NCBI RefSeq assembly: GCF_018205345.1
Contig: NZ_JADRHM010000008.1
Span: 1-52,322 of the forward strand
Direction: 5' to 3'
DNA from: Fusobacterium sp. DD2
GTDB lineage: Bacteria; Fusobacteriota; Fusobacteriia; Fusobacteriales; Fusobacteriaceae
Length of the DNA stretch: 52,322 nt
In this document: in pieces, positions 15,727-52,305 of the stretch
Position numbering within the stretch: position 1 is the first letter of the stretch
Layout: each line of letters begins with the position of its first letter
Translations under genes and position numbers: made by a program
The notes under the pieces: model-generated
Databases searched by the model: none
What the model was told of the DNA's origin: nothing
What the model saw: only the letters and a program-made list of their open reading frames with translations

Positions 15727-16284
15727 ATGATAAATAATTTCGCTTGTATGGAACAGCCTGAATTCAGAAAAAACCTCATATCGAGGGTTAATCGAATCGA
15801 CGGACAAATAAGAGGAATTGAAAGGATGATTCACAACAATGAAAAATGTGATGATATCCTTAATCAGATTTCTTCAGTTAAATCTGCTTTAAATGGTATT
15901 GCTAAAGTTGTTCTTGAAATGCACTTGAGAAACTGTGTTGTTCACGACATAAAAGCAGGGATGGAAGATGAAGCAATAGCTGAACTCATTGTAACTTTAA
16001 ATAATTTCATTCATAAATCTGGACGGCCACTTAAAGATAATAATGAAAATATTATAAGGAAGATAGAAAAGCAGATAAATAACATAAGGGTCTGTATAGA
16101 TAAACAAGAGTGTTGCAGCAGTATACTCAAAGTAGTAGCATCTATAAAGGTTGAACTGAATGCCATGGCCAAAGTTTTACTTGAGGAACATGTCAAAAGT
16201 TCTCTAGCTGCAGACATAAAAAAAGGGCCAGAGAAGAAAATAATAGATGATTTCTTATACACAATTAACAAAATGATGAAATAA
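15727..16284 (+). CDS. csoR: CsoR-family copper-sensing repressor, tandem duplicated
   Basis: 185 residues, twice the usual CsoR length of about 90, with two DUF156 units in one chain (about 10-98 and 106-185). Unit 1 has the Cu(I) ligand trio C41, H66 and C70 at CsoR spacing (+25, +29). It also has the conserved basic/GQIRG DNA-contact helix (SRVNRIDGQIRGIERMI). In unit 2 the equivalents are C130, H155 and S159: one Cys ligand is replaced by Ser, and the GQIRG-type motif has become KQINNI. Ordinary CsoR is a homotetramer; this chain could form a pseudo-tetramer from two subunits. It lies 15 bp after copA. A likely operator lies before copZ. Confidence 0.9.
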   Translation: MINNFACMEQPEFRKNLISRVNRIDGQIRGIERMIHNNEKCDDILNQISSVKSALNGIAKVVLEMHLRNCVVHDIKAGMEDEAIAELIVTLNNFIHKSGRPLKDNNENIIRKIEKQINNIRVCIDKQECCSSILKVVASIKVELNAMAKVLLEEHVKSSLAADIKKGPEKKIIDDFLYTINKMMK

Positions 16285-19874: not shown

Positions 19875-22463
19875 ATGAACAAACAGGAATTAGCAAATAA
19901 AATATGGGAATCAGCAAATAAAATGCGTTCTAAGATTGAAGCTAACGAGTATAAAGACTATATTTTAGGCTTTATATTCTATAAATTTCTATCTGATAAA
20001 GAGGTCTCTTTTATGGAAAGCCAGGGGTCTTCTAAAGAGGAAATGAAGGAGTATCTGGTAGATACAGATCCTGAAACTGTAGAGTGGATTCAATCAAAAA
20101 TTGGATATTTTATCTCTTATGACAATCTTTTCTCAACATGGCTTGATATGGGAAAAGACTTTAACGTAGCCAATGTAACAGATGCACTATCAGCATTTAA
20201 CCGTCTTATTGCAAAGGACTATTCTAAAGTATTCTCTGGAATATTTAACACTTTGGAAACTGGACTTGCAAAACTTGGAGAGACTGCAGGTAAACAGACT
20301 AAAGCAATAAGCGATCTTATTCAACTTATTAAAGATATTCCAATGGATGGAAAACAGGACTATGATGTTCTTGGATTTATATATGAATATTTAATTTCTA
20401 TGTTCGCTGCTAATGCAGGTAAAAAAGCTGGAGAGTTCTATACTCCTCATGAAGTATCTCTTTTAATGAGTGAAATAGTAGCTGAACATTTAAAAGATAG
20501 AAAAACAATCCAGATATTTGACCCTACTTCAGGAAGTGGAAGTTTGCTGATTAATATTGGTAGGTCAATTGCAAAACATATGGACGATGCAGATAACATC
20601 AAATACTATGCACAGGAACTTAAACAAAATACATACAACCTTACAAGAATGAATCTGGTAATGCGTGGAATACTCCCTGCTAATATAATTACCAGAAACG
20701 CAGATACCTTAGAAGACGACTGGCCTTACTTTGATGAAAATGATCCAGTAGGAACATATGAACCTCTATATGTAGATGCTGTTGTATCAAATCCGCCATA
20801 TTCACAACCTTGGGATCCAGAAGGAAAAGAAAATGATCCAAGATACAGTAGATTTGGAATTGCACCAAAAGGAAAAGCTGACTATGCCTTCCTTCTTCAT
20901 GATCTATACCACATAAAACCAGATGGACTTATGACAATAGTTTTACCTCACGGGGTTTTGTTCAGAGGTGGAGAAGAGGGAACTATACGTAAAAACCTCA
21001 TTGAAAATAACCACATCGATGCAATTATAGGTCTTCCTGCAAATATATTCTTTGGAACAGGTATACCTACTATTGTAATGGTACTAAAACAAAAAAGAGA
21101 GAACACAGATATATTGATTATTGATGCTTCTAAAGGATTTATCAAAGAAGGAAAACAAAATAAACTTCGTGCATCTGATATAAGACGAATAACAGATGCA
21201 GTGAAATATAGACTGGATGTGGATAAATTCAGTAGAAAAGTTTCAAGAGATGAGATAAGAGAAAATGACTATAACCTTAATATACCAAGATATGTAGATT
21301 CTTCAGAAAAACCTGAAAGTTATGATATCTACTCATCTATGTTTGGTGGAATTCCTAAAAATGAGATAGCTGAACTTAATAACTATTGGGAAGCTTTTCC
21401 AGACCTTAAAAAGGCTCTTTTTACTGAAGATGGAGAAGATCACGTTACAGTAAAAGAAAAAGATATAGAGGAGATTGTTAAAAACCATATATCAGTTACT
21501 AATTTCCAAAAACATTTTGAAAATGCCTTTAATGGATTTGCTTCTTTAATGGAACAGAATTTAATTAAAAACATGGAAGATGTAAATGTAATGAAGGAAC
21601 AAAATATTCTTGCAAAAGAGATATTTAAAAGACTTGAAGATATTCCTTTAGTTGATAAATATGAGGCATTCCAAATGCTTGATGATAAATGGACTGAGAT
21701 AGAAAAAGACTTTGAAATCCTTAAAAGTGAAGGAAAAAGCGTTACTACAAAAGTCATACCTAATATTGTAATAAAGAAAAAAAGCGGAAAAGATGTAGAA
21801 GTTCAAGATGGATGGACATCTCCTATTATTCCTTTTGAACTAGTACAGTCAACTCTTTTAAAAGATGAAAAAGAAAAACTTCAAGATAAAGAGGATATGC
21901 TAAATCAGGTAATAAGTGAACAACAGGAAATATTTGATTCATTCTCTGAAGAGGATAAAGAGGAACTAAATGAGGAATTGAATGCCGATAATACAGCCTT
22001 TTTAGCTGGAAATCTTAATAAAAAAGTTAATGAACTTTTAAAAGAACACAAATTAAGCTTTTACACTGAAGAAAGTATTGAATATAGGGTTATAACTACT
22101 AAAAAACTTTCTGACAAAGAAAAGAGATTGAAAAAAGAGATAAGTGATGGAGCTGACAAACTTCATATCCTTACTAAAGAAACAATTGAAAATCTTAATG
22201 AAGAACAAATAGATATGCTGCTTAATAAGAAATGGATTGAGCCTGTTTTAAATGGACTTCGTGAAATTCCTAACACTATTGTAGAGAATTTCATTAAAAA
22301 GATTCAGGCTATGGAAGAAAAATATGCTACAACATTTGCTGACATTGAAAAAGAGATACGTGAAACAGAAAAAGAACTTATCGGATTTATTGATGAATTA
22401 ACTGGTTCAGATGCCGATATGAAGGGGCTTATGGAGCTTAAGCTGTTGCTGGGAGGTGAATAG
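19875..22463 (+). CDS. hsdM: Type I restriction-modification DNA methyltransferase subunit HsdM
   Basis: Adenine-N6 methyltransferase subunit that joins HsdS to make the modification complex. Residues 1-150 are the helical N-terminal domain. The SAM site is FDPTSGSGSLLIN (about 215-227), and the catalytic motif is NPPY at 306-309. The core ends near residue 520. Residues 520-862 form an additional helical, charged extension, making the protein about 340 residues longer than the common 500-residue HsdM. The end overlaps the ribosome binding site of hsdS, whose ATG is 1 bp after the stop. It is functional by sequence; long versions exist in the family, and the extension's role is unknown. Confidence 0.96.
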   Translation: MNKQELANKIWESANKMRSKIEANEYKDYILGFIFYKFLSDKEVSFMESQGSSKEEMKEYLVDTDPETVEWIQSKIGYFISYDNLFSTWLDMGKDFNVANVTDALSAFNRLIAKDYSKVFSGIFNTLETGLAKLGETAGKQTKAISDLIQLIKDIPMDGKQDYDVLGFIYEYLISMFAANAGKKAGEFYTPHEVSLLMSEIVAEHLKDRKTIQIFDPTSGSGSLLINIGRSIAKHMDDADNIKYYAQELKQNTYNLTRMNLVMRGILPANIITRNADTLEDDWPYFDENDPVGTYEPLYVDAVVSNPPYSQPWDPEGKENDPRYSRFGIAPKGKADYAFLLHDLYHIKPDGLMTIVLPHGVLFRGGEEGTIRKNLIENNHIDAIIGLPANIFFGTGIPTIVMVLKQKRENTDILIIDASKGFIKEGKQNKLRASDIRRITDAVKYRLDVDKFSRKVSRDEIRENDYNLNIPRYVDSSEKPESYDIYSSMFGGIPKNEIAELNNYWEAFPDLKKALFTEDGEDHVTVKEKDIEEIVKNHISVTNFQKHFENAFNGFASLMEQNLIKNMEDVNVMKEQNILAKEIFKRLEDIPLVDKYEAFQMLDDKWTEIEKDFEILKSEGKSVTTKVIPNIVIKKKSGKDVEVQDGWTSPIIPFELVQSTLLKDEKEKLQDKEDMLNQVISEQQEIFDSFSEEDKEELNEELNADNTAFLAGNLNKKVNELLKEHKLSFYTEESIEYRVITTKKLSDKEKRLKKEISDGADKLHILTKETIENLNEEQIDMLLNKKWIEPVLNGLREIPNTIVENFIKKIQAMEEKYATTFADIEKEIRETEKELIGFIDELTGSDADMKGLMELKLLLGGE

Positions 22464-22464
22464 T

Positions 22465-25400
22465 ATGAGTAAGAAAAAAACACCTGCCATTAGATTTAAA
22501 GGGTTTACTGATGATTGGGAACAGGAACAGTTAGGTAAATTATGCGAAATATATGATGGAACTCATCAGACACCTAAATATACTGAAAGTGGTGTAATGT
22601 TTTTATCAGTTGAAAATATAGGAAAACTAAAATCAAATAAATTTATATCTGAACAAGATTATAAAAAAAATTTCAAGGTATTTCCCGAATATGGTGATGT
22701 TTTCATGACTAGAATAGGAGATATCGGCACTGCAAATGTATTACAAGAAAGACAACCTATTGCATATTATGTAAGTTTAGCTCTACTTAAACCATTATAT
22801 TTGGATTCCTTTTTTTTAAATGAATGTATTAACTCACCTTCTGTAAAAAAGGAACTCTGGCATAGAACTTTACATATAGCTTTTCCTAAGAAAATTAATA
22901 AAAATGAAATTTCAAAAGTTTTAATCACTTACCCAACAATCATAGAACAAAAGAAAATAGGTCAATATTTTAAAGCACTGGATAACCTTATTACCCTTCA
23001 TCAACGTAAGTGTGAAAAGTTGAAAATATTTAAAAAAGCTATGCTTGAAAAAATGTTTCCTAAAAATAATAAAAAAATTCCAGAAGTAAGATTTAAAGGA
23101 TTTACTGACGCTTGGGAACAGTATAAATTTGAGCAACTATATAAAAAAATTAATGTCAAAAACGACTTATCTTACACTGAGCAGGATATAATTTCAGTTG
23201 CAAATATGTATTATAAAACTGATACATATATTTCTAACAAGGAATATTTAAAAACATATAATGTTTTTAAAATTGGCGATATTGCCTTTGAAGGAAATAA
23301 AAATAAAAATTTTACTCATGGCAGATTTGTTGCAAATACAATAGGACCAGGCATTATTTCCCATGTTTTCGATGTATTTACACCCATCATGGATTATGAT
23401 TTATGTTTTTGGAAATATGCAATTAATAACGAACTTATTATGCGTGATATTTTAATTAGGTCAACAAAATCTTCTACCATGATGACTAATCTTGTAGCAA
23501 ATGATTTTATGGAAGAAAAAATGTTAGTCCCATGTGTTCCAGAACAAAAGCAAATTGGACAGACTTTACAATGTATAGATAACCTTATTACCCTTCATCA
23601 GGGTATGGATTTTGCACAAAATTACAAAAAAATTAGTATTTTAGCTATAAAAACAGAAAAATATTTAGGGAGGAGGACACAGAAATTGATTTTTAAAAGC
23701 GAAGCAGACTTTGAAAAAGCACTCATTAATGATTTGAAAAAAAATGGATGGGCAAATGAAGTTTTGAAATATCCTACTGAAGAAGATCTTATTCAAAACT
23801 GGGCAAACATCCTTTTTGAAAACAACAGAGGTCGTGACAGATTAGGTGATGCTCCTCTAACAAAAACTGAAATGAAACAAGTTTTAGATCAAATTAACAA
23901 CCTGAGAACTCCATTAAAGCTGAATGGGTTCATTAATGGGAAAACCGTCTCTATAATCAGAGATAATGAGGATGACAAAGAACATCTTGGAAAGATGGTC
24001 AGCCTTAAAATATATGATAGACATGAAATAGCTGCAGGACAAAGTAGATATCAGATAGCACAACAACCTATTTTTAGAGCAAAATCTCCCATTTTAAATG
24101 ATAGACGTGGTGATTTTATGCTACTTATCAATGGAATGCCTGTTATTCATGTTGAACTAAAAAAACATGGTATTCCAGTAAGTCAAGCGTATAATCAGAT
24201 TGAAAAATATGCCCATGAGGGAATTTTTACAGGAATTTATGCTCTGGTACAGATATTCGTTGCTATGAACCCTGAAGAGTGTGTTTACTTTGCTAACCCA
24301 GGACCTGACGGAAAATTCAACCCAGACTTCTACTTCCATTGGGCAGATTTCAATAACGAGCCATTAAATAACTGGAAAGATATTTCAACAAGACTCTTAT
24401 CAATCCCTATGGCTCATCAACTTATTGGATTTTACACTGTAGCAGATGATTCAGATGGAATTTTAAAAGTTATGAGATCTTATCAATACTATGCAGCTAA
24501 TGAAATTTCAGATAAAGTTTCTAAAATAAAATGGGATCAAAATCATATTCGTGGGGGATATATCTGGCATACTACTGGAAGTGGAAAGACAATGACATCT
24601 TTTAAATCAGCTCAGCTTATTGCTAATTCAAAAGATGCTGACAAAGTTATTTTCCTAATGGATAGAATTGAGCTTGGAACTCAATCTCTTCATGAATATA
24701 GAGGATTTGCAGATGATTCTGATGATGTACAAGCTACTGAAAATACACATACTCTAATATCAAAACTAAAAAGCAATGACCCTGCAAATACTTTAATTGT
24801 TACATCTATTCAGAAAATGAGTAGAATTGAACTTGATGAAAATGGCCTTAATGCTGCTGATATTAAAAAAATGAGTAATAAACGTATTGTATTTATTGTA
24901 GATGAGGCACATAGATCAACCTTTGGAGATATGCTTGCTACAATTAAAGAAACCTTCCCTGACGCAGTTTTCTTTGGTTTTACGGGTACTCCAATATATG
25001 ATAAAAATAAAAAGAAAAATTCAACTACATCTACAATATTCGGAGATGAACTTCATAGATATACTATTGCAGATGGAATCAGAGACGGAAATGTTTTGGG
25101 ATTCTATCCGTATAAAATAAATACGTATAAAGATAAGGATCTTAGAAAAAAAGTTGCTCTAAAAAAAGCAGGTTGTCTTACAGAACTGGCAGCTATTAGT
25201 GACCCAAGTACAAACTCTATTTACATGAAATACATACAAGATGTCCCTATGGCTGGATATACTGATGAAAATGGAAAGTATATAAGTGGAATTGAAGATG
25301 AAATAAAAAAAGTACAATATGAAACTGATACACATAGAAATATGGTGTTGCAGGATATTTCAGATAACTGGTTAACATTAAGCCAAAATGGTAAATTTCA

Positions 25401-26913
25401 TGGAATATTTGCAACAAGTTCAATAAATGAAGCAATAATTTATTACAGACTATTTAAAGAAAAGATGCCTAACTTAAAAGTCACTGCTCTTTTTGATTCA
25501 AATATTGATAATAATGGAATCAGTGATAAAAGCAATCCACTATTCAAAGAAGATGGTCTTGTAGAAATAATGCAGGATTACAATGAAAAATATGGAATGA
25601 GTTTTGATCTTGCTACACATAATCTTTTTAAGAAAGATATCTCAATGAGACTTTCGCATAAAGATACGTATAAATTCATTGAACGGGACAAAGATAAACA
25701 ACTGGATATTTTAATTGTTGTAGATCAGATGCTTACTGGATTTGACTCTAAATGGGTAAATACCCTTTACCTTGATAAAGTCCTTGTATATGAAAATATT
25801 ATTCAGGCATTTTCTAGAACTAATAGACTTTTTGGTCCAGATAAACCATTTGGAGTAATAAGATATTATCGTTTTCCTAATACAATGGAACAGAATATTA
25901 AGGAAGCAGTAAAATACTACTCTGGAGACAGAGAGGTAGATCTGTTTGTTGAGCATCTTCCATATAATTTAAATAAGATGAATGAAATCTTTAAAGATAT
26001 ACAGGCTCTATTTAAATCAGCAAAAGTAGAAAATTTTGAAACTCTACCTAAAGACCCAACTGAAAAAGGACAATTTGCAAAGCTATTTTCTCAATTTAAT
26101 AAATACTTTGAAGCCGGAAAAGTGCAAGGATTTACATGGAAACAGGATGAATACGTATTTGACAACCATGAATCAATAAAAGTGTTAATAACAGAACAGA
26201 TATATAACGTACTTCTTCAAAGATATAAAGAGTTGGCAAAAGAGGAGCATGAGGAACAAGAAGATGTTCCTTATGATATTGAGGGATATCTTACAGAAAT
26301 TGATACTGGAAAAATAGATAATGACTATATGAACTCAAGATTTGAAAAATATTTAAAAGATCTTGATCAAAAACATATTAATCCTGAAGAATTTCAAAAT
26401 ACACTAAATGAACTTCATAAATCTTTCGCAAGTTTAAATCAGGAAGAGCAGAAATTTGCCAATATCTTTCTTCATGATATTGAAAGCGGAGATGTAAAGC
26501 TTGTAAAAGGAAAAACATTCAGAGATTATATAACAGACTATCAGGTAGCTTATAAAAATAAACAGATTTTAAATCTTCATAACGCTATTGGAGTAAGTGT
26601 AGAACTTGTTGAAAAGTTCCTTGAATCCAATGTAGATGAAAAAAACATAAACGAATATGGTAGATTTGATGATCTTGAAAAAACTGTAGACAGAAAAAAA
26701 GCAAAGGAATTTCTTGAAAAGAAAAAGGGAAAAAAGATACCTCCTTTCTTGATAAATCGGGATATTTCAAATCTCCTAAGAGAATTCATTATGAGCGGTG
26801 GATTTGATATTTACGAAGAAGAAAAAGATAAAAAAATCATTGAATATTTTATGAATACTACTCCAAATCGTAATGCTGCTGATAGTGGTCAGGAAAAGAA
26901 AAACAAGAAATAA
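22465..26913 (+). CDS. hsdS: HsdS specificity subunit reading in frame into HsdR
   Basis: The frame opens at an ATG 8 bases after GGGAGG. Residues 1 to about 380 are a complete two-domain HsdS. TRD1 (22515-23003) begins WEQEQLG and ends YFKALDNLITLHQ. A conserved spacer helix (KAMLEKMFP) and a second RFKGFTD repeat follow, then TRD2 (23112-23600) ending CIDNLITLHQ. HsdS recognises the two halves of a bipartite DNA site. The usual C-terminal tail (RKxEKL...MLEKMF, present in the silent copy at 27624-27684) is missing. After the repeat the frame crosses 28 codons of unrelated sequence without a stop and enters hsdR. It may be translated as a 1,482-residue fusion, as separate HsdR, or both. Confidence 0.85.
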   Translation: MSKKKTPAIRFKGFTDDWEQEQLGKLCEIYDGTHQTPKYTESGVMFLSVENIGKLKSNKFISEQDYKKNFKVFPEYGDVFMTRIGDIGTANVLQERQPIAYYVSLALLKPLYLDSFFLNECINSPSVKKELWHRTLHIAFPKKINKNEISKVLITYPTIIEQKKIGQYFKALDNLITLHQRKCEKLKIFKKAMLEKMFPKNNKKIPEVRFKGFTDAWEQYKFEQLYKKINVKNDLSYTEQDIISVANMYYKTDTYISNKEYLKTYNVFKIGDIAFEGNKNKNFTHGRFVANTIGPGIISHVFDVFTPIMDYDLCFWKYAINNELIMRDILIRSTKSSTMMTNLVANDFMEEKMLVPCVPEQKQIGQTLQCIDNLITLHQGMDFAQNYKKISILAIKTEKYLGRRTQKLIFKSEADFEKALINDLKKNGWANEVLKYPTEEDLIQNWANILFENNRGRDRLGDAPLTKTEMKQVLDQINNLRTPLKLNGFINGKTVSIIRDNEDDKEHLGKMVSLKIYDRHEIAAGQSRYQIAQQPIFRAKSPILNDRRGDFMLLINGMPVIHVELKKHGIPVSQAYNQIEKYAHEGIFTGIYALVQIFVAMNPEECVYFANPGPDGKFNPDFYFHWADFNNEPLNNWKDISTRLLSIPMAHQLIGFYTVADDSDGILKVMRSYQYYAANEISDKVSKIKWDQNHIRGGYIWHTTGSGKTMTSFKSAQLIANSKDADKVIFLMDRIELGTQSLHEYRGFADDSDDVQATENTHTLISKLKSNDPANTLIVTSIQKMSRIELDENGLNAADIKKMSNKRIVFIVDEAHRSTFGDMLATIKETFPDAVFFGFTGTPIYDKNKKKNSTTSTIFGDELHRYTIADGIRDGNVLGFYPYKINTYKDKDLRKKVALKKAGCLTELAAISDPSTNSIYMKYIQDVPMAGYTDENGKYISGIEDEIKKVQYETDTHRNMVLQDISDNWLTLSQNGKFHGIFATSSINEAIIYYRLFKEKMPNLKVTALFDSNIDNNGISDKSNPLFKEDGLVEIMQDYNEKYGMSFDLATHNLFKKDISMRLSHKDTYKFIERDKDKQLDILIVVDQMLTGFDSKWVNTLYLDKVLVYENIIQAFSRTNRLFGPDKPFGVIRYYRFPNTMEQNIKEAVKYYSGDREVDLFVEHLPYNLNKMNEIFKDIQALFKSAKVENFETLPKDPTEKGQFAKLFSQFNKYFEAGKVQGFTWKQDEYVFDNHESIKVLITEQIYNVLLQRYKELAKEEHEEQEDVPYDIEGYLTEIDTGKIDNDYMNSRFEKYLKDLDQKHINPEEFQNTLNELHKSFASLNQEEQKFANIFLHDIESGDVKLVKGKTFRDYITDYQVAYKNKQILNLHNAIGVSVELVEKFLESNVDEKNINEYGRFDDLEKTVDRKKAKEFLEKKKGKKIPPFLINRDISNLLREFIMSGGFDIYEEEKDKKIIEYFMNTTPNRNAADSGQEKKNKK
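22984..23003 (+). repeat. Core recombination repeat, copy 1 (end of TRD1)
   Basis: AACCTTATTACCCTTCATCA, encoding part of LDNLITLHQ. Identical copies lie at 23581-23600, 27604-27623 and 28271-28290, all on the same strand. About 50 bp including this copy are identical to the silent cassette ending at 28290. Confidence 0.9.
23581..23600 (+). repeat. Core recombination repeat, copy 2 (end of TRD2)
   Basis: Identical 20-mer. Downstream sequence differs from copies 1 and 3, which continue into the RKxEKL tail; here it continues into the hsdR leader. Confidence 0.9.
23668..23688 (+). promoter_or_regulatory. Internal ribosome binding site and TTG start of hsdR
   Basis: GGGAGGAGG at 23668-23676 lies 9 bases before an in-frame TTG (23686-23688), which opens IFKSEADFEKALI, a typical HsdR N-terminus. 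This argues that HsdR is also made independently of HsdS. Confidence 0.75.
23686..26913 (+). CDS. hsdR: Type I restriction endonuclease subunit HsdR
   Basis: ATP-dependent translocase/nuclease subunit. From the internal TTG it is 1,075 residues, the usual HsdR size. The PD-(D/E)xK nuclease motif is GDFMLLING followed by HVELKKHG. Helicase motifs are Walker A TTGSGKTMTS, DEAH box VDEAHRSTFGDM, GFTGTPI, and motif VI QAFSRTNR. A C-terminal helical region binds the methylase core in known systems. No frameshift is visible, so the nuclease should be active. A terminator follows at 26931-26957. Confidence 0.94.
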   Translation: MIFKSEADFEKALINDLKKNGWANEVLKYPTEEDLIQNWANILFENNRGRDRLGDAPLTKTEMKQVLDQINNLRTPLKLNGFINGKTVSIIRDNEDDKEHLGKMVSLKIYDRHEIAAGQSRYQIAQQPIFRAKSPILNDRRGDFMLLINGMPVIHVELKKHGIPVSQAYNQIEKYAHEGIFTGIYALVQIFVAMNPEECVYFANPGPDGKFNPDFYFHWADFNNEPLNNWKDISTRLLSIPMAHQLIGFYTVADDSDGILKVMRSYQYYAANEISDKVSKIKWDQNHIRGGYIWHTTGSGKTMTSFKSAQLIANSKDADKVIFLMDRIELGTQSLHEYRGFADDSDDVQATENTHTLISKLKSNDPANTLIVTSIQKMSRIELDENGLNAADIKKMSNKRIVFIVDEAHRSTFGDMLATIKETFPDAVFFGFTGTPIYDKNKKKNSTTSTIFGDELHRYTIADGIRDGNVLGFYPYKINTYKDKDLRKKVALKKAGCLTELAAISDPSTNSIYMKYIQDVPMAGYTDENGKYISGIEDEIKKVQYETDTHRNMVLQDISDNWLTLSQNGKFHGIFATSSINEAIIYYRLFKEKMPNLKVTALFDSNIDNNGISDKSNPLFKEDGLVEIMQDYNEKYGMSFDLATHNLFKKDISMRLSHKDTYKFIERDKDKQLDILIVVDQMLTGFDSKWVNTLYLDKVLVYENIIQAFSRTNRLFGPDKPFGVIRYYRFPNTMEQNIKEAVKYYSGDREVDLFVEHLPYNLNKMNEIFKDIQALFKSAKVENFETLPKDPTEKGQFAKLFSQFNKYFEAGKVQGFTWKQDEYVFDNHESIKVLITEQIYNVLLQRYKELAKEEHEEQEDVPYDIEGYLTEIDTGKIDNDYMNSRFEKYLKDLDQKHINPEEFQNTLNELHKSFASLNQEEQKFANIFLHDIESGDVKLVKGKTFRDYITDYQVAYKNKQILNLHNAIGVSVELVEKFLESNVDEKNINEYGRFDDLEKTVDRKKAKEFLEKKKGKKIPPFLINRDISNLLREFIMSGGFDIYEEEKDKKIIEYFMNTTPNRNAADSGQEKKNKK

Positions 26914-26930
26914 AAATATATCATATTAAG

Positions 26931-26957
26931 AAAAAAGTCAGGCAACTGACTTTTTTT
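26931..26957 (+). terminator. Terminator after hsdR
   Basis: 11-bp stem (26931-26941 with 26946-26956), GCAA loop, T run. It separates the active genes from the silent cassettes. Confidence 0.85.
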
Positions 26958-27054
26958 GTTTCTTTTTATAGTTTTTATCCAAGTTATTAAATTTTATTGT
27001 TTAATGAAAAGATATTTAATTATATAGTCTTATTTAGTTAGTTTTAATAATATA

Positions 27055-27684
27055 ATGACAATTTATTTTGTTATATTTTTTCTAACAAATGATTGGGAAC
27101 AGTATGAGTTACAAGATATAATAATAAAAATTATTGATTTTAGGGGTCGAACTCCTAGAAAATTAAACATGTCATGGAGCAATAAAGGATACCTTGCGTT
27201 GTCTGCTTTAAATGTAAAAGATGGATATATCGATTTTTCACAAGATGTACACTATGGAAATGATGAATTATATAACAAATGGATGCTTGGAAATGAATTA
27301 CATAAAAACCAAGTTCTTTTTACAACCGAAGCTCCAATGGGAAATGTTGCTCAGATTCCTGATGATAATAAATACATTTTATCACAACGAACTATTGCCT
27401 TTGAGGTAAATTCCAACTTTTTAACAGAAAATTTTTTGGCTTATTTATTGAAAACTCCTCTTATATCCAATACCTTAATTTCTATGTCTAGTGGTGGAAC
27501 TGCAAAAGGAGTAAGTCAAAAAAATTTATTACAAATTTCACCTATTATTCCTAAAAATACAAATGAGCAGATTTTTTTAGGAAGTTATTTTAAAGCACTA
27601 GACAACCTTATTACCCTTCATCAGCGTAAGGTTGAAAAATTACAAATAATTAAGAAATCTATGCTTGAAAAGATGTTTGTGTAG
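27055..27684 (+). pseudogene. Silent hsdS cassette with C-terminal tail (TRD3)
   Basis: Half of an HsdS. Homology starts at TTGGGAACAG (27093-27102, WEQYELQD), runs through one target recognition domain, the 20-bp core repeat (27604-27623) and the normal tail ending LEKMFV and stop. The 5' junction WEQY matches TRD2 of the active gene. There is no ribosome binding site, and the first dozen codons are unrelated AT-rich sequence, so it is probably not translated. It can act as donor for the second position of hsdS. Confidence 0.85.
27604..27623 (+). repeat. Core recombination repeat, copy 3
   Basis: Identical 20-mer inside the TRD3 cassette, followed by GCG and the intact HsdS tail. Confidence 0.9.
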
Positions 27685-27822
27685 ATGAAATTATAATTAA
27701 AATTTTAAAATTAAAAAATAAATAAAAATTCTATAAAATATATAAAAAATTAGCTGAAATATCACAAAAATTGTCTAAAAATTAAAAAATATTGATTTTT
27801 TTGCTAAAAAAACGACTATAAC

Positions 27823-28294
27823 TTGGGAACAGGAACAGTTAGGAAATATTACACAAATAACAATGGGACAGTCTCCTGATGGTAAAACTTACTCTAAAAC
27901 ACCTAGTAAATACATCCTTGTCCAAGGAAATGCTGATTTGATTAATGGATGGGTAAAACCAAGAATCTGGACTACACAGATTACAAAAAAAGCAGAAGCC
28001 GGAGATCTGATTATGAGTGTAAGAGCACCAGCAGGTGAAATTGGAAAAACTAACTATGATGCTGTAATTGGAAGAGGAGTAGCCGCAATTAAAGCAAATG
28101 AATTTATTTTCCAAACTCTTGTAAAATTAAACGAAGAAAATTACTGGAAAAAGCTATCTTGCGGTTCAACTTTTGAATCATTAACTTCTAACAATATAAT
28201 TACTACAGAAATAAATACTCCTTCATCAAAAGAACAAGAAAAAATAGGTCAATATTTTAAAGCACTGGATAACCTTATTACCCTTCATCAGTAA
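27823..28294 (+). pseudogene. Silent hsdS cassette (TRD4)
   Basis: A lone target recognition domain bounded by TTGGGAACAG (27823-27832) and the 20-bp core (28271-28290), with a stop codon directly after LHQ. Its first 21 bases (to 27843) are identical to the TRD1 start, and its last 50 or so are identical to the TRD1 end, so it is a natural replacement for TRD1. It has no start codon of its own in the homologous part and no ribosome binding site. The reading frame through the domain is intact, as expected of a maintained donor. Confidence 0.85.
28271..28290 (+). repeat. Core recombination repeat, copy 4
   Basis: Identical 20-mer at the 3' edge of the TRD4 cassette. Confidence 0.9.
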
Positions 28295-28508
28295 AAGTTT
28301 GAAATCAAAAAACCAGACATTTATTTTACAAATGCTCACTTCCAGTTATACACAAAAACTATTTGAAGTATAAACTTTTTATGTAAAACTACAAGCTAAA
28401 TAACTCTAAAACACTCATATATTCATCCACCTAAAAAAAATATATCAAAATATATAAATTTTATTACTAAATAAAAGCGTAAGTCAATTTAAAAAGGAGG
28501 GATTAAAC
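28295..28508. other. AT-rich stretch before the recombinase gene
   Basis: 214 bp without a gene between the last cassette and the recombinase. Very AT-rich. It holds the recombinase ribosome binding site AAAAAGGAGG 8 bases before its ATG. No clear terminator or promoter consensus was seen. Confidence 0.5.
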
Positions 28509-29441
28509 ATGACAAAAAAAGTAAAGAGCAAAGAACTGTTTTGTGATTTTTACAAAAGATGGATTGAAGTTTACAAAAATGGTGCTGTGAGAGAAGTAAC
28601 AATGAAAAAATATATCATGACTCACAGATGGCTTACAAGACTTGTACCTGATTTAACTTTAGAAAACTTTGATAGAATTGAATATCAAAAGCTTATCAAT
28701 GGTTATGCTAAAACTCATGAACGGCAGACCACAATGGATTTTCATCACCAAATTAAAGGAGCTATTTTAGACGCTGTTGACGAAGGACTTATTGACAGAG
28801 ATCCTACCAGAAAAGCTATCATAAAAGGAAAAGCACCTAAAGCTAAAAAAATAAAGTACCTTAACCAATTTCAACTTCAAACTTTACTTTCCAATCTTAC
28901 TCTCAAAGAGGAAATTAACTGGGACTACTTTATTCTTCTAGTTGCAAAAACAGGAATGAGATTTTCAGAAGCACTGGCTCTTACACCTGAGGACTTCGAT
29001 TTTAGACACCAGTCTGTATCTATTTCAAAGACCTGGGATTATAAAGGAAAAGGTGGATTTCTTCCTACCAAAAACCGTTCATCTGTACGCAAAGTACAAA
29101 TTGACTGGCAAACTGTGATTCAATTTTCAGAACTACTAAAAGATTACCCATTTGATAAACCTATATTTGTAAGTAAAGATAAAAAAATCTACAATTCAAC
29201 TATCAATGATAAACTTACAAGATTATGCAAAAAAAGCAAAGTACCAGTTATTTCAATTCATGGTTTAAGACATACTCATGCATCACTTCTTTTATTCGCT
29301 GGAGTATCAACTGCCAGTGTTGCAAGACGTCTTGGGCATTCCAGTATCAACACTACTCAGAAAACTTATTTACATATAATACAGGAGCTTGAAAACAAAG
29401 ATATCGACCTGGTTATGAGAACTTTATCAGGACTTTCATAG
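28509..29441 (+). CDS. Tyrosine recombinase, probable hsdS shufflon recombinase
   Basis: 310-residue phage-integrase-family protein. It has an N-terminal SAM-like arm domain (residues 1-100) and a catalytic domain with R151 (TGMRFSEA), H251/R254 (HGLRHTH), H277 (RRLGHSS) and nucleophile Y287 (KTYLHI). All catalytic residues are present. It lies directly behind the silent hsdS cassettes, which in other bacteria marks recombinases that rearrange hsdS genes. A simple phage or island integrase is the alternative, but no other mobile genes accompany it. A strong ribosome binding site argues for expression. Confidence 0.9.
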   Translation: MTKKVKSKELFCDFYKRWIEVYKNGAVREVTMKKYIMTHRWLTRLVPDLTLENFDRIEYQKLINGYAKTHERQTTMDFHHQIKGAILDAVDEGLIDRDPTRKAIIKGKAPKAKKIKYLNQFQLQTLLSNLTLKEEINWDYFILLVAKTGMRFSEALALTPEDFDFRHQSVSISKTWDYKGKGGFLPTKNRSSVRKVQIDWQTVIQFSELLKDYPFDKPIFVSKDKKIYNSTINDKLTRLCKKSKVPVISIHGLRHTHASLLLFAGVSTASVARRLGHSSINTTQKTYLHIIQELENKDIDLVMRTLSGLS

Positions 29442-50199: not shown

Positions 50200-50661
50200 C
50201 TATTTTTTATCTTCCTTCTTATCTCTTATCTGTTCAAATCTCTTTTCCAGTTGTCTCCTAAAACATTCTGGAATTGGTATACCTGCTATTATTGCATTTT
50301 CTATAATACTTATAACCTCATTCCCTATAAAAATACAAGTAATTATATTCTTGAATTGGATTGGACCCCTCAACACTTCATCAGCTTTCCATACTGCAGT
50401 AAGCACCAACACCATCATTACCTTTTTTAGGGCTCCCTTGATACCTACACGGGAGTTCGTCTTTTCTGTTATAACACTCTTTATTATTCCGGATATATAA
50501 TCCGTTAGCATGACTATCGCCAGTGTTGCTACAAGCTCATCACGGCCTCCCGTAACATAAAAAATTAATGTTAGAATACCTCCAAGTACTAAATTGAATA
50601 CGTTAAATATTATTTTCCCTATTTCTTTTCCAAGTTCTATAATTTGATTAAGTTCATCCAC
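50200..50661 (-). CDS. Phage holin (holin_4 family)
   Basis: 153-residue membrane protein with about three hydrophobic spans (19-37, 44-62, 80-96) and the family motif TDYISGIIKSV, followed by GIKGALKKVMM. The basic C-terminus (RRQLEKRFEQIRDKKEDKK) is usual for class II-like holins. It would control release of the endolysin. It lies last in the minus-strand lysis cluster, after the LLH-like gene and the amidase. Confidence 0.88.
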   Translation of the reverse strand: MDELNQIIELGKEIGKIIFNVFNLVLGGILTLIFYVTGGRDELVATLAIVMLTDYISGIIKSVITEKTNSRVGIKGALKKVMMVLVLTAVWKADEVLRGPIQFKNIITCIFIGNEVISIIENAIIAGIPIPECFRRQLEKRFEQIRDKKEDKK

Positions 50662-50677
50662 GGCTGCCTCCTTTGAT

Positions 50678-51199
50678 TTATAGCTTTACTCCGCCTCTTA
50701 TACCGACAGCTGCTTCAGATTGGCCATGAAAATTAGTACGTCCTTCCGCATACCCTTCTATATAGCCTTTTGAGTCCCTCATATTTTTAGCTAATTCTAT
50801 TGCAGCTTTTGCATCAGGAGATGAAGATCCTACGTCAATTATTTTATTCAACATACTAATCTCATCAGCCTTTTTCCCTTTAAATACTACTTGTAAATCG
50901 GCTAGGGCACTTTCCAAATATTTGTGTATCATTTCATCGCTGATCAGATCCGATGCTCCTGCTGGAAGTTTACTTCTTACAATTTTAGTAGCTTCATCAA
51001 GTTTTTTCTTACCATTACCATCACGATAAATTGCTTCTACAAGTGACACAGAATAGTAGCCAATACGCATAAGAAGTGCTTTAATCTTCTGTTCTTTGGC
51101 TATTTTCCCCTGTCTTCTATACACATACATCAATACAATTAATGCCACTACTGCCACAATACATGCAATTATAACGCCATAAAATACTTTCTCAGTCAT
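50678..51199 (-). CDS. Phage membrane protein, possible LLH-type holin
   Basis: 173 residues from the chosen ATG (AGGGAGG upstream; an earlier ATG overlaps that site and the amidase end). One N-terminal membrane span (about residues 5-27, YGVIIACIVAVVALIVLMYVY) is followed by helical cytoplasmic sequence (KIKALLMRIGYYSVSLVEAIYRDGNGKKKLDEA ... LPAGASDLISDEMIHKYLESALADL). This matches the layout of LLH-family holins: one span, then a helical tail on phage-lysis proteins. The end GQSEAAVGIRGGVKL is unusual. It starts 1 bp after the amidase stop. Confidence 0.7.
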   Translation of the reverse strand: MTEKVFYGVIIACIVAVVALIVLMYVYRRQGKIAKEQKIKALLMRIGYYSVSLVEAIYRDGNGKKKLDEATKIVRSKLPAGASDLISDEMIHKYLESALADLQVVFKGKKADEISMLNKIIDVGSSSPDAKAAIELAKNMRDSKGYIEGYAEGRTNFHGQSEAAVGIRGGVKL

Positions 51200-51200
51200 G

Positions 51201-51731
51201 CTAATCTGCCTCCCTAATAAAATCAACTATAAATTTTGCAAACCTTTCCTTATTCTTGAATTTTTCCGCTTCCTGATTATTACCAAAAAACGGTTCAATT
51301 AAAACATAAGGGCAACAGGTCTTACAAATCCCGAATCCTCCTCTTTCGTTGCTATCTTTAATTTTTATAATGCCCTTATTTCTTAAACCATATTCATCAC
51401 ACAGTTTTTCTAAAAATTCAGTAGCAACTTTTTGACCTCCAGCACTTCCATGATGTGCTAAACATAAAGCGCCATTCACTTTTTTATCAGCCACATTATT
51501 GAAGTGGAGCTCCAGAACAAAATCATACTTGTGCTTATTAATTGAATTTACAACTGGAGTCATTTCCCTGGTATATCCTCCGGCCGGTTTCCTTATATAA
51601 ATATCAATTGAATTGTCCAGCTGGCTAATCATATTAGCTATATCAGTGTAGTAATCATATTCATATTGACGAAGCACTGTTGAATACGCCCCTTTGCTCA
51701 ACTCATTGTGACCAATTACCAATGCTTTCAT
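51201..51731 (-). CDS. N-acetylmuramoyl-L-alanine amidase (phage endolysin)
   Basis: 176-residue amidase_3-fold endolysin cutting the bond between glycan and peptide in peptidoglycan. Zinc/catalytic pieces are H in IGHNELSKG near the start, the His in LELHFN, and the catalytic Glu in VLIEPFFGN. It lacks a separate wall-binding domain. The chosen ATG has GGAGG at 8 bases; a GTG three codons earlier is unlikely. No signal peptide is present, so it needs the holins beside it for release. Confidence 0.93.
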   Translation of the reverse strand: MKALVIGHNELSKGAYSTVLRQYEYDYYTDIANMISQLDNSIDIYIRKPAGGYTREMTPVVNSINKHKYDFVLELHFNNVADKKVNGALCLAHHGSAGGQKVATEFLEKLCDEYGLRNKGIIKIKDSNERGGFGICKTCCPYVLIEPFFGNNQEAEKFKNKERFAKFIVDFIREAD

Positions 51732-51747
51732 ACTATTCACCTCCTAA

Positions 51748-52305
51748 CTACTTAATTTTTTTAATTTTAGTCAGTAACGCGTTTATTTCCTCCTTTAAGG
51801 CTTCCATCTTTGACTGCAATAAAACTATTGTCTCATCACTTTCAAATTCGTCTGAGAACTCTTTCAGCTCCTCGATTTCTTTCTTGTATTTTGCATACTC
51901 AAGAATTTTGTTTTTTCTGTCTATCATAAGACTTTCTTTATTAGCTCCTTCTTCCCAGCAAGCTTTTTCTTTATTCCACTTAGCTTGTACGAAGTCCTCA
52001 GAACATTCAACTGTTTTTATTGTTCCGTCAGTAACTACCTCTCCATCAGCAAGTAAATCTGTTTGATTTAGCAATACTATTTTTTCTTCTCTTGTCATTT
52101 CCCTGATTGTATCTTCTACTTTGTCATACGTTGGATATTCTAAAACTCTATCCTGGTCTACCATAACGATATGATTCTCATCATTTAGTTCTGGTCTGTC
52201 GTGAAAATTATCTCCGTTTGGATACACCTTAAAAAAGTCTTCTTCGGATAAATTGATTACATGATCTGCTTTTGAAATTGTTTCTTTTGTGTAAATAACT
52301 CTCAT
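51748..52305 (-). CDS. Prophage tail-associated hypothetical protein
   Basis: 185-residue protein beginning MRVIYTKETISKADHVINLSEEDF. The N-terminal half is beta-rich, and the C-terminal half (about 115-185) is a Lys/Glu coiled coil (KYKKEIEELKEFSDEF and LQSKMEALKEEINALL). Its size and its place immediately before an endolysin match small tail-fibre-associated or assembly proteins of prophages. No family is recognised with confidence. It is complete, ending the window; the rest of the prophage lies to the right. Confidence 0.7.
   Translation of the reverse strand: MRVIYTKETISKADHVINLSEEDFFKVYPNGDNFHDRPELNDENHIVMVDQDRVLEYPTYDKVEDTIREMTREEKIVLLNQTDLLADGEVVTDGTIKTVECSEDFVQAKWNKEKACWEEGANKESLMIDRKNKILEYAKYKKEIEELKEFSDEFESDETIVLLQSKMEALKEEINALLTKIKKIK

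Follow-up and report, generated by a model that had tools for sequence, protein, structure and literature searches.

Organization of the locus

The window analysed here is the whole 52,322-nucleotide stretch of Fusobacterium sp. DD2 DNA. It contains a type I restriction-modification locus, all on the + strand, whose parts are, in order, hsdM, a two-TRD hsdS, hsdR, two silent TRD cassettes and a tyrosine recombinase gene. Pfam, NCBIfam and PADLOC profiles identify HsdM, HsdR and the two-TRD HsdS, and the HsdS fold is seen in a model of the HsdS part, for which the best solved match is 1YF2 (E 6.7e-20). The initial annotation gave the order as hsdM, hsdS, two cassettes and recombinase; each of these parts is present, but a complete hsdR (23686–26913) between hsdS and the cassettes had been overlooked. 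The features of the locus are as follows.

19875–22463 (+): hsdM, type I DNA methyltransferase, 862 aa (N6_Mtase E 4.8e-102, HsdM_N; TIGR00497; PADLOC MTase_I 1259 bits)
22465–26913 (+): hsdS–hsdR, one open frame of 1482 aa, stop-free between the two parts (Pfam order in one protein: Methylase_S, HSDR_N, SWI2_SNF2, T1R_D3-like, EcoR124_C)
22465–23601 (+): hsdS part, 379 codons, ending at core B without the conserved tail (PADLOC S profiles; tails of relatives)
22513–22980 (+): TRD1, active, N-terminal; 55% identical to the C-terminal TRD of locus L089
22987–23010 (+): core A, right arm intact, CTTATTACCCTTCATCAACGTAAG
23110–23577 (+): TRD2, active, C-terminal (TRD comparison)
23584–23607 (+): core B, right arm degraded (GGTATG), joining hsdS to the hsdR leader
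23602–23685 (+): in-frame leader of 28 codons from core B to hsdR, in place of the HsdS tail and stop; homology to the tail unconvincing
23668–23688 (+): start signals of hsdR itself, GGGAGGAGG, a 9-nt spacer and TTG at 23686, at the position where close HsdR homologs start
23686–26913 (+): hsdR, EcoR124-like restriction subunit (TIGR00348 E 3e-99; PDB EcoR124 HsdR E 1e-78)
26930–26957 (+): intrinsic terminator after hsdR, separating the operon from the silent cassettes
27091–27684 (+): silent TRD cassette 1 (C1), TRD at 27091–27600, without ribosome binding site (Methylase_S E 1e-13)
27607–27630 (+): core C, right arm intact, CTTATTACCCTTCATCAGCGTAAG
27625–27684 (+): apparently displaced HsdS tail, RKVEKLQIIKKSMLEKMFV, and stop, matching the C-terminal tail of active HsdS in relatives
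27821–28294 (+): silent TRD cassette 2 (C2), TRD at 27821–28267, 57–75% identical to TRDs in L066, L062, L029, L013 and L088
28274–28297 (+): core D, right arm degraded (TAAAAG), the frame stopping directly after it
28509–29441 (+): tyrosine recombinase, 310 aa, with its own strong ribosome binding site (Phage_integrase E 5e-24; catalytic residues; tree)

Two other features of the window lie outside this locus. The region 15727–16284 (+), adjoining a gene for a copper-type P-ATPase, encodes a 185-aa protein in which the metal-sensitive repressor domain occurs twice in tandem (PF02583, two stretches), a CsoR-like repressor doubled within a single chain. At the window end, 50200–52305 (−) encodes a holin (PF05105) and an N-acetylmuramoyl-L-alanine amidase (PF01520), a pair that looks like the lysis end of a prophage or phage-derived element.

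The HsdS–HsdR reading frame

The hsdS start at 22465 has a good ribosome binding site and is followed by two TRDs, as had been annotated, but what was taken for an active gene has no stop codon before hsdR and lacks the conserved C-terminal tail, and so a separate complete HsdS subunit is absent. A tail of ~20 residues (xKxEKLKNIKKxMLEKMFV, then a stop) closes HsdS in 20 of 20 complete relatives. The PADLOC S profiles, 408–413 positions long, match the HsdS of the window up to positions 389–394 and leave the last ~19 unmatched. The tail and stop are found instead behind silent cassette 1, after core C (27625–27684). Since hsdR has its own TTG start and hsdS has no stop, free HsdR can be made while the encoded HsdS cannot be released. 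Because HsdS has neither a stop before hsdR nor the conserved tail, restriction-modification activity in the present state is uncertain. The two silent cassettes were correctly described at the outset as having no ribosome binding site: start signals are absent, and the intrinsic terminator at 26930–26957 lies upstream of them.

No relatives of the leader between core B and hsdR were found in the homology comparison. Over 36 bp its DNA is similar to that of the tail (shuffle p 0.01 in one of three comparisons), whereas the protein comparison with the tail gives p 0.7; judged from this DNA similarity, the leader might be a tail that decayed in place. AlphaFold models it as a helix continuing CR2, at low confidence (pLDDT about 30–65). 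The leader was also considered as the N-terminus of HsdR and rejected as such, because the TTG at 23686, which follows the strong ribosome binding site, is where close HsdR homologs begin. Frames of this type recur: the frame of silent TRD (S') arrays continues into HsdR in L073, L074, L077, L079 and L089, with open reading frames of about 1430–1500 codons in L089 and L074. No published account of an HsdS–HsdR read-through or fusion was found in the literature searched.

Repeats at the ends of the TRDs

Each of the four TRDs begins with TTGGGAACAG (22515, 23112, 27093 and 27823) and ends with an identical 20-bp sequence, AACCTTATTACCCTTCATCA, in which an 18-bp core starts at 22987 (A), 23584 (B), 27607 (C) and 28274 (D). 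This confirms the common start motif and the 20-bp end core of the initial annotation, with all copies direct. There is no copy of the core on the − strand and no inverted repeat between the TRDs.

The left halves of all four cores are identical. The probability that the four core copies agree at six codons, given the same amino acids, is ~3e-6, and ACC, which accounts for 4% of the Thr codons in the window, is the Thr codon in all four cores. Across hsdS-linked loci, TGGGAACAGCGTAAG at the TRD starts and CTTATCACCCTTCATCAGCGTAAG at the TRD ends are conserved at silent codon positions. Among 141 distinct TRD ends from the fetched loci and the window, with local codon usage as the background, the second Leu codon of the core is CTT in 100% against 18%, Ile is ATC in 88% against 22%, Thr is ACC in 84% against 15%, Arg is CGT in 89% against 12% and Lys is AAG in 95% against 31%. 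The GAA-CAG-CGT-AAG of the TRD starts is likewise fixed (CAG 96% against 23% and CGT 87% against 27% locally). Since the codons of the core and of the TRD start depart from local usage in this way while those upstream of the core (Glu, Gln, Ile and Gly) track it, the repeats are, on codon usage, both conserved protein and DNA sites, and the two sites ending in CAGCGTAAG are under selection as DNA. Such DNA-level constraint on the core and the TRD-start motif across phyla is what would be expected of recombination sites.

The sites of the window are unequally preserved. Core B has two right-arm mismatches and core D has three, and these two cores may be poor recombination sites. All four TRD starts have 3–4 mismatches in CGTAAG, a half-site that is lost at every start in only 2 of 38 loci of relatives.

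The tyrosine recombinase and its relatives

The recombinase (28509–29441) is intact, as had been stated, and keeps all six catalytic residues (R151, K174, H251, R254, H277 and Y287). It is 55–64% identical to proteins adjoining hsdS in Mycoplasmopsis cynos, Listeria innocua, Aerococcus and Lactobacillus, and 71–80% identical to 80 fetched chromosomal copies, nearly all of which adjoin hsd genes or cores. In a tree made by a quick method, recombinases from Tissierellia (L014), Desulfosporosinus (L017) and two bins, Methanofastidiosum (L015) and Peptococcaceae (L019), join it in one clade (support 99), and phage integrases and the remaining recombinases of the same genome branch far away. On these comparisons it is a member of an hsdS-linked family spread across phyla. 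The initial annotation had considered that it might cluster with island integrases that never sit beside hsdS; its kin adjoin hsdS instead, and an identity as an island integrase is ruled out by this neighbourhood of the nearest relatives and by the tree.

Close recombinase relatives with the same core also occur in L015, L024, L051 and L093, labelled Methanofastidiosum, Saccharibacteria, Spirochaetales and Pasteurellaceae, a spread that reflects wide transfer or, for the metagenome ones, mis-binning. Homologs of about 50% identity lie mid-genome in phages without annotated hsdS (Listeria phage B054 gp64, L095 3001–3945; Lacticaseibacillus phage R9.1, L096 2995–3918). The closest recombinase in viral contigs, 87% identical, is on an IMG/VR contig (L102, 1–2000) that also carries a head-to-head pair of TRD cassettes and the same tail sequence; this is an inverted counterpart of the window locus, cut by the contig end so that the hsdM side is not shown.

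Searches of another 60 genomes from the family gave neither a recombinase relative at E 1e-40 nor an HsdR match at the cut-off used, and the restriction-modification and recombinase system was therefore probably acquired, as far as these searches of genomes can tell. Neither a second arrangement nor an empty site was found in the genus or family, where the flanking genes are absent or only 37–42% identical. A search upstream of the recombinase gene for an RNA element, by analogy with the tvr attenuator, gave no stable fold and no Rfam match.

Simulated rearrangements and a possible mechanism

Since the copies of the core are direct only, core-to-core recombination excises circles and cannot invert DNA. 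All arrangements of the three core-to-core pieces were listed by simulation, 16 in total. The TRD of C1 or C2 enters the active gene in 0 of the 16, because the TRD starts of the cassettes do not abut a core. The simulated outcomes are a T1–T2 HsdS read through into HsdR, which is the present state; a 398-aa T1–T2 HsdS with tail and stop; a T1-only half-HsdS of 199 aa; a T1-only read-through; and loss of the tail unit or of hsdR. The 398-aa HsdS with its tail arises when the 667-bp piece between cores C and D is placed at core B. Relatives have the layout that this move produces, and the sequenced genome is therefore most simply read as carrying a scrambled state of a tvr-like locus.

These results lead to a plausible mechanism, in which the dedicated tyrosine recombinase would cut at the core ending each TRD, and core-to-core circles would be excised and then put back at another core, as in tvr/SpnIV. 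The unit of tail, stop and TRD C2 (667 bp, cores C to D) would have been displaced to behind silent cassette 1, and core B of the active hsdS would then abut the hsdR leader. HsdS would be made in this present state only as an HsdS–HsdR read-through, and free HsdR could start at its own TTG. A single excision and reintegration step that carried the 667-bp unit to core B would bring back the order seen in relatives (M, full HsdS with stop, S', R, S'', int), and the states would interconvert. The free HsdS state would carry the TRD2 core joined to CGTAAGGTTGAAAAATTAC; the other joins predicted under shuffling are the TRD C2 core to GGTATGGATTTTGC, the TRD C1 core to TAAAAGTTTG and the TRD1 core to the tail, giving a half-HsdS. 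The basis of this proposal is the observed anatomy, the single direction, the missing tail and stop, the DNA-level constraint on the sites, the kinship of the recombinase and the rearranged arrays elsewhere; the action of the recombinase on the sites, the movement of the tail and the interconversion of states are what we infer.

In L074, an independent scrambled locus, the gene next to hsdM encodes a half-HsdS with tail, and the CR1 unit is displaced into a silent array whose frame continues into HsdR. Between the half-HsdS and the silent array of L074 (4230–4709) lies an unrelated 159-aa open reading frame (MILYHGSNVEV...), perhaps cargo of a shuffled unit. Against movement, no second arrangement of the same locus was found, and the case is built on a single snapshot of it together with the relatives. 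The contig also runs unbroken through every core, which points to a single arrangement dominating in the sequenced culture.

Taken with these results, it is rather probable that this is a type I restriction-modification locus of the direct-repeat hsdS-shuffling kind, sequenced in a rearranged state. The further step, a recombinase-driven transfer of the HsdS tail and stop from active gene to silent cassette and back, with a switch between free HsdS and S–R read-through (and half-HsdS), is a tentative proposal that leans towards the doubtful.

Alternative explanations

According to the initial annotation, the locus yields several HsdS specificities through shuffling of the SpnIII or Mycoplasma pulmonis kind, with methylation phase-variable now. 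The ingredients on which this was built are there: spare TRDs with common ends, a recombinase of an hsdS-linked family adjoining hsdS, and a C2 TRD whose 57–75% identical counterparts elsewhere include TRDs of active HsdS; in other genomes the same TRD families also occur at different HsdS positions. The mechanism invoked does not apply, because those systems invert inverted copies and the window locus has no inverted copy of core or TRD, on which ground an inversion model was rejected. Neither cassette TRD reaches the active gene in any core-to-core arrangement, and because the TRD-start sites have lost the CGTAAG half and cores B and D are degraded, recombinase-driven TRD exchange in the present state is unlikely. 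Several specificities would need another route, such as homologous gene conversion. T1 and C2 could be exchanged by it, since the pair shares 24 bp at the start (23 of 24 identical, 96%) and 65 bp at the end (91%), and a conversion between this start match and the long core would stay in frame. The view as a whole is unlikely, and the locus as sequenced looks able to change the form of HsdS more easily than its target sequence. A more serious rival is a locked or decaying locus, whose tail was lost by mutation or deletion, whose recombination sites are mostly degraded and whose silent TRDs are relics. The loss of CGTAAG at all four TRD starts, so rare among relatives, fits this explanation, as do the degraded cores B and D, the contig running through all cores, the weak DNA similarity between leader and tail and an hsdS shorter than in all relatives. 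On the other hand, the frames of hsdM, hsdR, the recombinase and the two cassette TRDs are all open and intact, the left halves of the cores are identical with the rare ACC in four of four copies, and core C, beside an intact site, still has a complete tail and stop; decay is a possibility to be taken seriously, if not the expected one.

The remaining alternatives concern the hsdS–hsdR junction. The read-through could be a functional design, in which a stable fused chain together with free HsdR from the internal TTG gives the 1:2 S:R ratio of the complex. The frame is open across all 1482 codons, the silent S' arrays of L073, L074, L077, L079 and L089 also run in frame into hsdR, and the leader is modelled as a helix extending CR2, if with low confidence. 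Since the HsdS linked to hsdM stays separate and tailed in relatives, the leader has no relatives and low pLDDT values, and no S–R fusion is described in the literature searched, such a design is quite improbable. An assembly error at the core repeat would be conceivable with short repeats in an assembly of 155 contigs. None of the other cores is followed by the sequence found after core B (GGTATG...), and the junction therefore cannot arise by a swap of existing copies; ordinary reads are longer than the repeats, and the leader runs straight to the hsdR ribosome binding site at the usual distance. An assembly error is accordingly the least credible explanation, and hardly to be entertained.

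Comparison with known systems

A REBASE survey of phase-variable type I systems required inverted repeats of 20 bp or more (PMC7394358), and direct-repeat loci therefore lie outside its net. Among 29 comparable loci of relatives with hsdM, hsdR, int and at least three cores, 15 have direct cores only and 14 have an inverted core, so that the window locus and about half of the comparable loci would escape surveys of this kind. The two sites constrained at silent codons give a simple DNA signature by which direct-repeat systems can be sought in any genome. Should the displacement of the tail be reversible, the locus would alter not only the target of the enzyme but also its form; what is phase-variable would then be subunit architecture and restriction activity instead of the target sequence.

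The pneumococcal SpnIII/cod/ivr locus with PsrA (PMC4948785, PMC7096588) resembles the window locus in having silent hsdS copies, a tyrosine recombinase and short repeats inside hsdS, but it has inverted copies and undergoes DNA inversion, whereas the copies in the window are direct only. The M. pulmonis-type hsd loci, with locus L010 of Mycoplasmopsis cynos, have a recombinase 62–63% identical, the same core motif and the same hsdM–hsdS–hsdR order; in L010 the silent hsdS copies and recombinase are on the strand opposite to hsdM-S-R, whereas all parts of the window locus are on one strand. In its sequence organization, the window locus is thus not of the SpnIII or M. pulmonis type. The direct-only arrays of Clostridia and relatives (L030, L061, L063, L072, L073, L077 and L089) share the same core, cores on one strand, silent TRDs and a downstream recombinase. 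In these, unlike in the window, the hsdM-linked HsdS is complete with tail and stop, and CGTAAG is kept at the TRD starts in most.

The pneumococcal tvr/SpnIV locus, for which excision and reintegration via a circular intermediate have been shown experimentally (Kwun et al. 2018, PMC6265443), is like the window locus a type I restriction-modification system with TRD units in one direction, direct repeats at the TRD ends and a dedicated tyrosine recombinase. In both, the hsdM-proximal TRD has no upstream site and is immovable by core recombination. The two repeat types of tvr have a common core, and in relatives of the window locus the core and the TRD-start repeats likewise share CAGCGTAAG, whereas the TRD starts of the window have lost the shared part. 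In tvr, hsdM and hsdR flank the array and tvrATR is at its centre; in the window, hsdR is between the active hsdS and the cassettes and the recombinase is terminal. The window locus further differs in having no tvrAT or toxin-antitoxin genes, an hsdS without tail and stop, and degraded TRD-start sites. It is tvr-like in direction and probable mechanism, and with hsdR inside, no tvrAT and a terminal recombinase it is not filed as a member of tvr. The closest published mechanism is the excision and reintegration of tvr/SpnIV rather than the inversion of SpnIII or M. pulmonis.
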